Assembly: GCA_035288405.1 (NCBI GenBank)
Contig: DATEAK010000018.1
Coordinates: forward strand, 1-6,388
Direction: 5' to 3'
Source: JACPSX01 sp035288405 [NCBI: bacterium]
Lineage (GTDB): Bacteria > JACPSX01
Length of the DNA: 6,388 bases
Position 1 is the stretch's first letter. Each line of letters starts with the position of its first letter. The notes beneath the pieces are model-generated. The model made no database searches. It was not told the DNA's origin and was given only the letters and a program-made list of their open reading frames with translations. Shown here one piece after another: positions 2,898 to 5,498 of the stretch. The position numbers were made by a program, and so were the translations under genes.

Positions 2898-2926
2898 TTG
2901 AACATCTAATGGATTTTCACTATAGT
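2898..2926 (+). promoter_or_regulatory. Sigma70-type promoter reading rightward, -10 box within a 12-base palindrome
   Basis: TTGAAC (2898-2903, 4 of 6) and TATAGT (2921-2926, 5 of 6) are separated by the ideal 17 bases. The -10 box is embedded in TCACTATAGTGA (2917-2928), a perfect palindrome that may be an operator or a chance effect of the AT-rich box. Its -35 is 24 bases from that of the leftward promoter, so the two are back to back. It would transcribe the unrecognised gene and the DUF2203 gene. Confidence 0.5.
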
Positions 2927-3096
2927 GAGTTACTTGAAATTTTCCCAGAACGGACACAACCACATTTACCGGGACCGCAAGGGCCGGCTGATTTGCGTGG
3001 CTGAAGGCCTTCGAACTCACCGACGACAGACCCGCTTTAATCAGCACCTTCCTGTGCGCCGGGATCTCCCACACACACCGAGGCAACGTCCCCTAC
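2925..3096 (+). other. Coding-like 5' extension of the unrecognised gene, in two frames (possible frameshift)
   Basis: The frame of the downstream gene stays open back to a TGA at 2989-2991 and reads like protein from about 3001 (LKAFELTDDRPALIS, then CAGISHTHRGN), yet contains no ATG or GTG. Before that point a different frame, open from GTG 2925, has coding-type composition: in 25 codons I count G or C in 19 third positions but only 8 second positions. Deleting one base near 2997-3003, such as one G of the GG at 2999-3000, would join the two into a protein of about 402 residues. A third frame from ATG 2909 (MDFHYSELLEIF...) also reads plausibly up to a TGA at 3002, and would join by adding one base, but only 10 of 30 third positions are G or C. 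The cause could be a sequencing indel, a real mutation, or simply a TTG start. Confidence 0.45.
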
Positions 3097-4134
3097 TTGT
3101 ACCGCACCACCCGGCTCAACTTCTTCGCCCCGGACGATCCTGAAATGGTGGCTCTGGCTCAATTCCTGGAGAAGAAGTTCCGGGAAATCGGCCGAGAGAC
3201 GCCGAGAGTCGAAGTCCTCTCGTTGATCCAGCTCCCCAAGACAGCAGCACAGTACCGGAGCTTCCTCACTCGGGTCCGGTGCCGGGGAGGAGACCCGCAG
3301 ACGTTGGGCTTGCCCGGGCGCCTGCAAGATTCCCGGTTCTTTGACCCCAAGACCCGGGGCTGCGTTTCTTCCAACTTCGTCTTTTTCAGCCCGCTGACCG
3401 AATTAGCTGATTCGATCAAGGTCATTACGATCAACACGGACTACCACGGAGAGGTCAAGAGCCGTGGAGTCCTCTCTCCGCTGATGGCCATCATGTCACT
3501 GATCCAGTGGTCATCCTTCGGACGGATCACCCACGAATATTTTCCCGAGAGGCTGTTTTACGATCCGGAATGGGGGCATCTTCTCTACGACCGCCGCCCC
3601 CGGCGGGTATCGGCCAACGTCTTTCTGGAAAGAAACCGAGGCCTGGATTTCTGCGTCAAGCGCGTGAGCGCCGAGGAGGCCATGCGCTGGCTCCTGATCG
3701 GGCGCACGCCGTCGGGAAAGTTCGAGCCTCTCTACAACGCCTATCCCGACTTCAGCGGTCTTCTGATGGGGACCGGAGTCGTGGGAGAAAAACTGGTTTC
3801 CGCTTACGAGGAAGCCCGCCGCGGAAACTTCAGCGCCCTGAACCCGAATCCCAGGATCGGCCAAGCGATTTATGATAAACTCCACATCCAGGTAACCTTG
3901 TGGCAAAAAAACTGCAAAGACATTCCCACCTATATCGTAAACGGGGCTCCGGGACTGGAAATCACCCAGGATATCAACTGGCTGCTCTCCGAGCACCCGG
4001 ACGCCTTTGGACCCTGGGAAAAGGTCACCGTGGAGGAATTCAAGAACTATATGTTCCGAAATTACCAGGTGACCTACGGCAGCAAGGGAGAGTGGACTCA
4101 CATCACCGCCGAGGAGCGGGCCGGCCAGCACTAG
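3097..4134 (+). CDS. Unrecognised conserved-looking protein, 345 residues or longer
   Basis: I do not recognise this family. The frame is long, has G/C-rich third codon positions and dense aromatic, Pro and charged content typical of a folded soluble enzyme; I see no signal peptide and no membrane segment. Features, counted from the TTG at 3097: an N-terminal part with YRTTRLNFFAPDD, a helical stretch rich in Lys/Glu (20-33), paired cysteines at 62 and 89, a hydrophobic segment FVFFSPLTELADSIKVITIN (94-113), TDYHGEV (114-120), SPLMAIMSLIQWSSFG (127-142), a cluster of aromatic and charged residues FYDPEWGHLLYDRRPRR (154-170), and a GLLMGTGVVGEK glycine loop (221-232). The TTG has no good ribosome site and the coding signal continues upstream, so the N-terminus is probably incomplete. 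It precedes the DUF2203 gene by 57 bases, likely in one transcript. Confidence 0.8.
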   Translation: MYRTTRLNFFAPDDPEMVALAQFLEKKFREIGRETPRVEVLSLIQLPKTAAQYRSFLTRVRCRGGDPQTLGLPGRLQDSRFFDPKTRGCVSSNFVFFSPLTELADSIKVITINTDYHGEVKSRGVLSPLMAIMSLIQWSSFGRITHEYFPERLFYDPEWGHLLYDRRPRRVSANVFLERNRGLDFCVKRVSAEEAMRWLLIGRTPSGKFEPLYNAYPDFSGLLMGTGVVGEKLVSAYEEARRGNFSALNPNPRIGQAIYDKLHIQVTLWQKNCKDIPTYIVNGAPGLEITQDINWLLSEHPDAFGPWEKVTVEEFKNYMFRNYQVTYGSKGEWTHITAEERAGQH

Positions 4135-4191: not shown

Positions 4192-4581
4192 ATGACCAAA
4201 ATTTTTTTTACCGTGGAAGAGGCGAATCGCCTCCTCCCTACGTTGATTCCCATCCTCGAAGCGCTTAAAGAAGCGGAAAAATCTCTGCGAAAGACGCGGA
4301 AAGTTGCGTCCGCCCTGGCCCACAAGGCCGACGGCAATGGAGGAGGAAAAGAAGGAAGCCAGCTGCTTCTTCGCCACTACTTCCCTTTCCAGAGTCTTCT
4401 TCAGAAGATCGAAAGCTTCGGCGTCTTGGTGAAAAATATCGAAAGCGGGCTCATCGACTTCCCCTACTGGAGGGAAGGGAGGGAAATCTATCTGTGCTGG
4501 GAGTTCGGAGAATCGGGGATTCGCTACTGGCACGAAGTGGAAACGGGTTATGCGGGGCGGCAACCCATCGACACCCTCTAG
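4192..4581 (+). CDS. DUF2203 family protein
   Basis: A 129-residue soluble protein of unknown function. The DUF2203 pattern is clear at both ends: FTVEEANRLLPTLIPILEAL (6-25) at the N-terminus, then helical segments with a variable Gly/Lys linker (45-56), and the C-terminal signature VKNIESGLIDFP (80-91), EGREIYLCWEFGE (95-107), then RYWHEVETGYAGRQP (111-125). The conserved Trp, His and Glu of CW..GE...YWHE are all present and suggest a functional site, although none is established to my knowledge. The ATG at 4192 is chosen because the family starts at this point; an in-frame TTG at 4165 would add 9 residues. No strong ribosome site is visible, so translation may depend on the upstream gene. 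Its TAG stop overlaps that of the convergent HtrA-like gene. Confidence 0.88.
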   Translation: MTKIFFTVEEANRLLPTLIPILEALKEAEKSLRKTRKVASALAHKADGNGGGKEGSQLLLRHYFPFQSLLQKIESFGVLVKNIESGLIDFPYWREGREIYLCWEFGESGIRYWHEVETGYAGRQPIDTL

Positions 4582-5474
4582 CGGTAGAACTCTTCCCGAC
4601 TGCTGCAGACAACCTCCACGCTTTTGAGTTCTTTCTCGCGCAGAATGTTGAGGACCACACTTTCCCCCGGCTTCTTTTTCCAGAGCTCACTGTAAAGTTC
4701 CACCCGGTTGGAAATGTCCCGGGAATTGATCCCCAAAATGATATCCCCCTCGTGCAATCCGGAGATCTGGGCAGGGCCGTACGGAACCACGCTGGCCACC
4801 ACGAGCCCTCCTTCCAGCGGCTGAGTATAGAATCCGATCCATCCCCGAGCGGTGCGGATCCGCTGACCCAGGGTCAGGAACTCGTCCCGGTAGTCCTGGA
4901 AGTACTCAACCGGGATCGCCATGGTCGAGCGCAGAAGCTCGCTCAAGTTCAAGGAAACCACCCCCACCAGATTCCCTTTCATGGTGAACAGGCCGCCTCC
5001 TCCAAACCCCGGATTGATCGCAGTGGTCATGATGGCTCGATCCAACATGTATTCCCAATGGGCGTCAAAAGGCCCCAGGTAGGTCACCAGGCCCCCGCTC
5101 CCCTTGCGACCTTCATCGCCGGTCCCAGCCATCACAAAAACCGGCTGCCCGACCTCCAGAGACTGGGAGGAGACCGGCTCGGCAAAAGGAGTAAAGGGTA
5201 GAGGAATGCGCAAGACCGCAATTCCGCTATCAAAGTCCTGGGCCACAATCTCCCCTGGCAAACTCCTGCCGTCACTCAGGGTAACCGTGATCTTCTCCGC
5301 CCCCATGACCACGTAATTGACGGTCAAGATCAATCCCGAAGAGTCAATGAGCGTGCCCGAACCCATGCGCTCGGCTCCCAGAGCCCAGACGGAGGGGTGT
5401 CCCGCGGGCACCTGAATTTGCAGGGAGACGATTGCCGGCGCAACTTTTTCGATCAAGGCAACGTTTGCGTCCAT
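4578..5474 (-). CDS. HtrA/DegP-like S1C pseudoprotease with PDZ domain
   Basis: 298 residues: a trypsin-like S1C domain (about 5-200) and a C-terminal PDZ domain (about 205-290; GLVVASVVPYGPAQISGLHEGDIILGINSRDI). Active HtrA proteases carry TNNHVV, SD-I/L-A and GNSGG. Here the equivalents are TVNYVV (Tyr54 for His), DSGIAVL (Gly84 for Asp) and NPGFGGGGL (Gly158 for Ser), so the whole catalytic triad is gone while the fold residues around it (GSGTLID, GLILT, AINPG, LVGVVSLN) remain. Peptidase activity is therefore very unlikely; peptide binding through PDZ, scaffolding or chaperoning is possible. There is no signal peptide or N-terminal membrane segment, unlike typical periplasmic HtrA, which suggests a cytoplasmic location unless the start is wrong. 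The ATG at 5474 has AAAGGA 7 bases upstream. The frame is intact, so the losses look selected or tolerated rather than the result of decay. Confidence 0.9.
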   Translation of the reverse strand: MDANVALIEKVAPAIVSLQIQVPAGHPSVWALGAERMGSGTLIDSSGLILTVNYVVMGAEKITVTLSDGRSLPGEIVAQDFDSGIAVLRIPLPFTPFAEPVSSQSLEVGQPVFVMAGTGDEGRKGSGGLVTYLGPFDAHWEYMLDRAIMTTAINPGFGGGGLFTMKGNLVGVVSLNLSELLRSTMAIPVEYFQDYRDEFLTLGQRIRTARGWIGFYTQPLEGGLVVASVVPYGPAQISGLHEGDIILGINSRDISNRVELYSELWKKKPGESVVLNILREKELKSVEVVCSSREEFYR

Positions 5475-5498
5475 GGGAGGGTCCTTTCTAAACGCCTT

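Follow-up and report, generated by a model that had tools for sequence, protein, structure and literature searches.

In the HtrA-type protease DegS, binding of a peptide by the PDZ domain brings Met319 into a clash with the L3 loop, which spans residues 176-189; the L3 residue Arg178 then touches the neighbour's LD loop and contributes to the ordering of the active site, and the residues Pro161, Tyr162, Leu164, Thr167, Arg178 and Gln191 form the activation cluster (excerpts of PMC11642142). Among relatives with degenerate triads, MamO is described as carrying a C-terminal transporter domain and a di-His metal site, and as encoded in a magnetosome island (portions of PMC4794232). A survey from 2008 counted two catalytically inactive proteins among 247 prokaryotic trypsin-like proteins of 91 genomes (portions of PMC2605481). 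In the open-licence literature we found no bacterial HtrA-type pseudoproteases besides MamO and inactive MamE, and no work on the clade that is described here.

The gene under study lies on the minus strand of a stretch of 6,388 nucleotides, hereafter the window (contig DATEAK010000018.1 of assembly GCA_035288405.1), and forms an intact frame with an ATG start (Table 1). Its product matches the Pfam families Trypsin_2 (residues 38-172, E 1.8e-18) and PDZ_2 (residues 212-288, E 8e-16). The best NCBIfam match, TIGR02037, reaches 125.6 bits against a cut-off of 416.2, and none of the 16 listed HtrA models (TIGR02037, DegS, HhoA/HhoB/HtrA and others) passes its cut-off for this protein. A trypsin-like domain followed by a C-terminal PDZ domain is thus present, the His-Asp-Ser triad and an export signal or membrane anchor being absent; judged from its sequence, the protein is a homologue of HtrA/S1C by descent, and we do not class it with the proteases of that family.

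Table 1. Features of the pseudo-HtrA gene, in positions of the window.
Feature	Positions	Strand	Basis
Pseudo-HtrA gene, 298 aa: S1C trypsin-like domain and one PDZ domain, without leader	4578..5474	-	ORF, Pfam, phmmer, model
Tyr54 codon, catalytic His site (DegS H96)	5313..5315	-	Alignment; coordinates counted from the start codon
Gly84 codon, catalytic Asp site (DegS D126)	5223..5225	-	Alignment; coordinates counted from the start codon
Gly158 codon, catalytic Ser site (DegS S201)	5001..5003	-	Alignment; coordinates counted from the start codon
Putative L3 loop region, residues 135-147, with clade motif W140-E141-Y142	5034..5072	-	Alignment; L3 via DegS residues 176-189 (excerpts of PMC11642142)
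PDZ region, residues 207-298: carboxylate-binding loop 207-216, helix residues Tyr261 and Trp265	4581..4856	-	Pfam, alignment
Likely ribosome-binding site AAAGGA, 7 nt 5' of the ATG	5482..5487	-	Read directly from the sequence

The initial annotation had proposed an HtrA-like protein with a well-preserved fold and PDZ domain, a fully replaced triad and a normal promoter and ribosome site. Its view of the triad is borne out, as phmmer alignments to chains of the DegP/DegQ type place Tyr54, Gly84 and Gly158 on the catalytic His, Asp and Ser, and a MAFFT alignment places them on H96, D126 and S201 of E. coli DegS. The HMM and MAFFT alignments agree on the triad columns in all rows of both trees discussed below; displacement of the triad by misalignment is ruled out by the concurrence of the phmmer, HMM and MAFFT alignments. 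The ribosome site likewise stands, and the promoter is the weakest part of the proposal, with one sigma-70-like match (TTGTCA-17-TAAAGT, 9/12, 5527-5499 on the minus strand) against a chance mean of 0.5.

The preserved fold is supported by the Pfam matches and by a structure model. With the nine family rows alone the monomer model was poor (pLDDT 58.4), and its PDB matches are disregarded here. The addition of two intact HtrA rows to the alignment yielded a confident model (pLDDT 87.4, pTM 0.85), which leans on these two rows and predicts an HtrA fold. It matches DegP, AlgW, DegQ and HhoA best, with Z about 27 and an rmsd of 5-10 Å over the two domains together, and the protease domain alone superposes on H. 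pylori HtrA (5y28) at 1.9 Å over 177 residues; structures were also compared by Foldseek listing.

The replaced triad is not peculiar to the window. A scan of genome contigs returned eight loci (L001-L008), each matched over residues 1-298, from a Candidatus Tectomicrobia MAG (L001, 84% identity to the window protein), six Rokubacteria MAGs and one 'Deltaproteobacteria' MAG. Tyr54, Gly84 and Gly158 are invariant in all nine first homologues, at 44-84% identity to the window protein, and a recurrence of this kind means that the replacements are not read errors, a possibility that had been raised for these codons. A wider census comprised 162 distinct homologues with at least 240 aligned residues, after removal of duplicates and shorter rows (including fragments from genomes G023, G031 and G010): 81 members of a branch A that contains the window protein, 37 of a branch B, two with a His-Gly-Ser combination (the H-G-S pair) and 42 intact HtrAs, this last group being defined by the His-Asp-Ser triad itself and not by other motifs. 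The triad is kept in these 42 and not in the other 120, hereafter the clade. Here the Asp is absent throughout (120/120), all three residues are absent in 112, and 108 read Tyr-Gly-Gly. A close homologue with an intact triad was looked for and was found in none of the 120 clade members read.

Single-letter states of the three sites show how uniform the branches are. Branch A reads YGG in 72 members, YGS in three, YSS in two, and HGG, SGG, YNG and YSN in one each; branch B reads YGG in 36 and YGA in one. Six members of branch A thus keep or regain the His (one) or the Ser (five). The latter five (L138, L139, L140, L141 and L162) have Ser at position 158 without the His or Asp, and the nested position inside branch A of those included in the trees makes this look like a secondary return. 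Branch A is present twice in each of two genomes, its copies lying about 11-12 kb from each other (L097 and L102 on contig C343 of G024; L098 and L099 on contig C62 of G026). One copy in each genome, L097 with H-G-G and L099 with S-G-G, lacks the Tyr at position 54, which every other A or B member has.

The clade is also broadly distributed. We searched three phylum-level groups, those of genomes G001, G002 (the genome of the Rokubacteria locus L002) and G003, and clade genes occur in all three. In the G002 phylum, a profile of the nine sequences had matches at E <= 1e-60 in 73 of the 95 genomes. Branch A is found in 63 of the 95 genomes, in three of them as fragments only (G010, G023 and G031), and the lower-scoring branch B in 45, its loci having been read in 22 genomes and the other 23 being assigned by score alone. 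At least 16 of 297 sampled genomes of the G003 phylum match at E <= 1e-55, at least 12 with branch A and at least four with branch B; here, as in a search with the H-G-S pair that gave additional clade members, scoring stopped at 7 or 5 candidates in any one genome, so that the counts are lower bounds. The G003 genome itself also carries an H-G-S copy, and the single genome of the G001 phylum has branch A. Among viral contigs, 188 pattern matches included no relative of the pseudo-HtrA.

In order to place the loss of the triad, two trees were built with the triad columns left out, from 76 and 71 representative rows of the 162. Intact HtrAs and the rest are separated with an SH-aLRT of 100 in both; branch A receives 99 in both, branch B 92 and 99, and the grouping of A with B 85 and 88. 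If the root is placed with the intact HtrAs, the first lineage to split off is the H-G-S pair (86 in both), followed by B and A; these are quick-search trees without bootstrap, in which the branching of A, B and the H-G-S pair rests on SH-aLRT values of 85-92. Parsimony requires one change between intact and lost states. Counted separately for sites 54, 84 and 158, it requires 3, 2 and 4 changes, or 3, 3 and 4 on the 71-row tree, the extra changes arising because a few nested members differ. On these trees the loss of the triad therefore appears confined to one clade, in which the same replacements recur, and that the window protein is not a canonical protease seems to us very nearly certain.

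The H-G-S pair (L106:3968-5221 and L146:1489-2697, both on the minus strand) is HtrA-like, keeps the catalytic His and Ser, has Gly for the Asp, and bears the signature of Trp-Glu and Tyr261 described below. These two proteins are possible intermediates, and a whole clade with possible intermediates allows an order of loss to be proposed. Loss would have begun with the Asp and with the greater part of the activation relay, ahead of the His and Ser; in the pair, the first five cluster residues are already gone, and Gln191, the His and the Ser are retained. The likely succession is loss of the Asp in secreted forms, a step that rests on two sequences, then replacement of His by Tyr and of Ser by Gly, and finally loss of the leader in branch A; a Tyr-Gly-Gly ancestor thus likely gave rise to both the secreted branch B and the leaderless branch A.

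According to the alignments, most of the DegS activation cluster has been lost along with the triad. Pro161, Tyr162, Leu164, Thr167, Arg178 and Gln191 of DegS correspond to Thr118, Gly119, Glu121, Lys124, Pro135 and Met149 in the window protein, so that all six are replaced; of the 14 tree rows from branch B, six retain an Arg at the Arg178 site. This bears on the idea of a cryptic enzyme, in which migrated or other residues would catalyse despite the missing triad, as some pseudoenzymes are described to have migrated catalytic residues (portions of PMC10211241). Two acidic residues, Asp80 and Glu141, do not vary among the first nine homologues, and Ser158 occurs in the five branch A members named above; against this, the same nine share a Ser-loop of the form N-P-G-[F/L/Y]-G-G, in which the Asn that precedes the catalytic Ser has been replaced as well, and the replacement of most of the activation relay argues against cryptic catalysis, which we consider very improbable.

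Other positions have become fixed. Trp140-Glu141 in L3, Tyr261 in the PDZ domain (the site of DegS Met319) and the group Leu32-Gly33-Arg36 are each present in 120/120 clade members and in 0/42 intact HtrAs, counts that may be inflated, as the homologues were collected with family profiles, which favours members sharing the family motifs. Met at the Met319 site is not general among intact HtrAs, the commonest residue being Gln. Mean column entropies differ as well: from intact HtrAs to branch A they are lower in L3 (2.56 to 0.92 bits) and in the PDZ helix (2.11 to 1.27 bits), and higher in the Ser-loop segment (0.62 to 1.11 bits) and in LD (0.90 to 1.52 bits). We read this pattern, in a comparison of two sets that differ in diversity, as a transfer of constraint away from catalysis and towards the PDZ-L3 side; the His-site segment (1.30 to 0.94 bits) runs counter to a simple shift. 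The carboxylate loop of the PDZ domain is largely kept in the window protein (Arg207 and Gly211-Trp212-Ile213-Gly214-Phe215). Its first Gly, present in the window protein, is replaced by Ala in 91% of branch A and by Pro in branch B, and the binding of C-termini may thus be altered in these proteins.

A further conserved residue, His26, is found in all 81 members of branch A. It could bring to mind a protease repurposed for metal binding, since MamO demonstrates that a trypsin fold can carry a conserved metal site (portions of PMC4794232). However, no second His is invariant among the first nine homologues, and neither branch B nor the H-G-S pair conserves His26, so that these homologues show no conserved di-His pair; the window protein also ends after its PDZ domain, without the C-terminal transporter domain of MamO. 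A role in metal binding therefore seems most unlikely.

The proposed lack of an export signal and the resulting cytoplasmic placement find support as well. In the window only nine codons separate Met1 from the preceding in-frame stop, too few to encode a leader, and in 53 of the 81 branch A members the open frame ahead of the equivalent Met extends over 15 codons or fewer. A missed upstream start with a leader was considered and rejected on account of this short frame in the window and in the 53 members; in the remaining 28 the upstream frame is longer, and only a hydropathy test speaks against a leader. This test is positive in 1 of 81 members of branch A, in 36 of the 37 branch B proteins (L107, the one that fails, is truncated at a contig end) and in 17 of 42 intact HtrAs, the last figure indicating that such a crude test misses many true leaders. 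One of the H-G-S pair has a hydrophobic N-terminus and the other falls just below the threshold. It is highly probable that the window protein is cytoplasmic, and branch B (L107-L129, L142-L145, L157, L158, L161, L163, L166, L167, L170, L171, L208 and L216) is a sister group that lacks the triad and looks secreted.

The gene is under purifying selection, and the constraint is weaker than on its neighbours. In comparison with its nearest relative, L001, dN/dS is 0.156 (dN 0.088, dS 0.566, 298 codons), two to three times the values for the neighbouring genes leuB (0.076), purE (0.078), acpS (0.045) and DUF2203 (0.046). A decaying gene or an assembly artefact could be suspected next to a neighbouring ORF that looks broken (2925-4134, plus strand), but the open frame, the 81 distinct branch A sequences with 72 Tyr-Gly-Gly states and the dN/dS value leave this a negligible probability; pseudogene and read error were rejected in view of recurrence together with dN/dS. 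As for the neighbouring ORF itself, it has no Pfam match at E <= 1 and its frame is broken around 2990-3003, and L001:5149-5598 carries the apparent two ends of the same gene in one short frame; this gene seems to be decaying in both genomes.

Within the 6.4 kb of the window, Pfam identifies Sua5, purE, acpS, leuB, DUF2203 and an aminotransferase, and L001 shows the same order (pseudo-HtrA, convergent DUF2203, leuB, acpS, purE, Sua5), Pfam having been run on the window genes only. Clustering of the neighbours of 80 branch A loci revealed no conserved operon partner, and the idea of one was rejected; the recurring neighbours are ordinary and lineage-specific, and they differ from those of the window. 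They include a short-chain dehydrogenase (at least 29 of 80 loci), a BrkB-like membrane protein (at least 22), a DNA polymerase B (at least 22) and a DsbA-like protein (at least 19), lower bounds because many loci have short flanks. In branch B, a nucleotidyl transferase gene lies upstream in 14 of the 27 loci examined and an epimerase-like gene, named by eye, is found in 12 of 27.

One could also imagine that the pseudoprotease joins an active HtrA and modulates it, in the manner of MamO, which promotes MamE-dependent proteolysis (portions of PMC4794232). Intact His-Asp-Ser HtrAs are encoded in all eight genomes of L001-L008, and in each of the four among them that have branch B (G002, G006, G007 and G008) the branch B gene and an intact HtrA gene share a strand and are about 5-7 kb apart. 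The window protein belongs, however, to branch A, whose members have no leader and so should not meet exported HtrAs; no HtrA gene is prominent among the branch A neighbours, and the residues that link subunits in DegS (LD, and Arg178 of L3) are replaced in this branch. A regulatory partnership with an active HtrA is thus improbable for the window protein, and this account fits branch B better.

The cutting site and the export signal have been lost and the peptide-binding part is strongly conserved, and the protein is therefore probably a binder or sensor. We moderately favour a leaderless, dead HtrA homologue that would serve as a cytoplasmic PDZ binder of peptides or protein C-termini, with a non-proteolytic output via L3. 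The initial annotation had likewise suggested a pseudoprotease kept for binding: its non-cleaving half stands, given the loss within one clade, the purifying selection and the fold, and binding by the PDZ domain in the cytoplasm is what we infer. In such a protein, the PDZ domain would bind a peptide or protein C-terminus in the cytoplasm, and binding would be read by loop L3, by analogy with the clash of Met319 and L3 in DegS at the site of Tyr261. The L3 signal would then be passed to a partner or oligomer, not to the active site, in the role of an adaptor, holdase or sensor. This PDZ-L3 mechanism is put forward tentatively, at slightly less than even chances.

We speculate further that a protease could have been turned into a peptide-sensing switch, which as a soluble protein would sense exposed C-termini or serve as an adaptor for them, and that the secreted branch B would have a similar task outside. 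Of the DegS path, the first half, from the PDZ ligand through residue 261 to L3, would have been kept and hardened; the second half (LD, L1 and catalysis) would have been cut, the protein moved to the cytoplasm and the movement of L3 made the output. This extended account is possible but rather doubtful.

Altogether, the clade makes it testable what an HtrA does without cutting and whether a PDZ-L3 switch works alone, and the annotation 'serine protease' would mislead for its genes. Like DegS, DegQ and DegP (HtrA, S1C), the window protein combines a trypsin fold with PDZ, having one PDZ domain as in DegS, and its predicted structure matches DegP, DegQ and AlgW. In contrast to DegS, DegQ and DegP, it has no triad and no leader or membrane anchor, and most of its activation-cluster residues are replaced; in contrast to DegS, it has a Trp-Glu motif in L3 and a Tyr at the Met319 site. 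MamO and the inactive MamE copies of magnetotactic bacteria are similarly HtrA types with degenerate triads beside active ones, and MamO is the nearest studied precedent (portions of PMC4794232). It differs in architecture, as the window protein ends at residue 298 after the PDZ domain and shows no conserved di-His pair among the homologues aligned here. Inactive prokaryotic homologues of serine proteases likewise have an S1 fold from which catalytic residues are missing; compared with the two proteins of the 2008 survey (portions of PMC2605481), we find here a clade of two branches and 120 distinct members, in which the loss of most of the relay, the invariant L3 motif and PDZ residue, the secreted sister branch and the relatives that have lost only the Asp go beyond the initial annotation.
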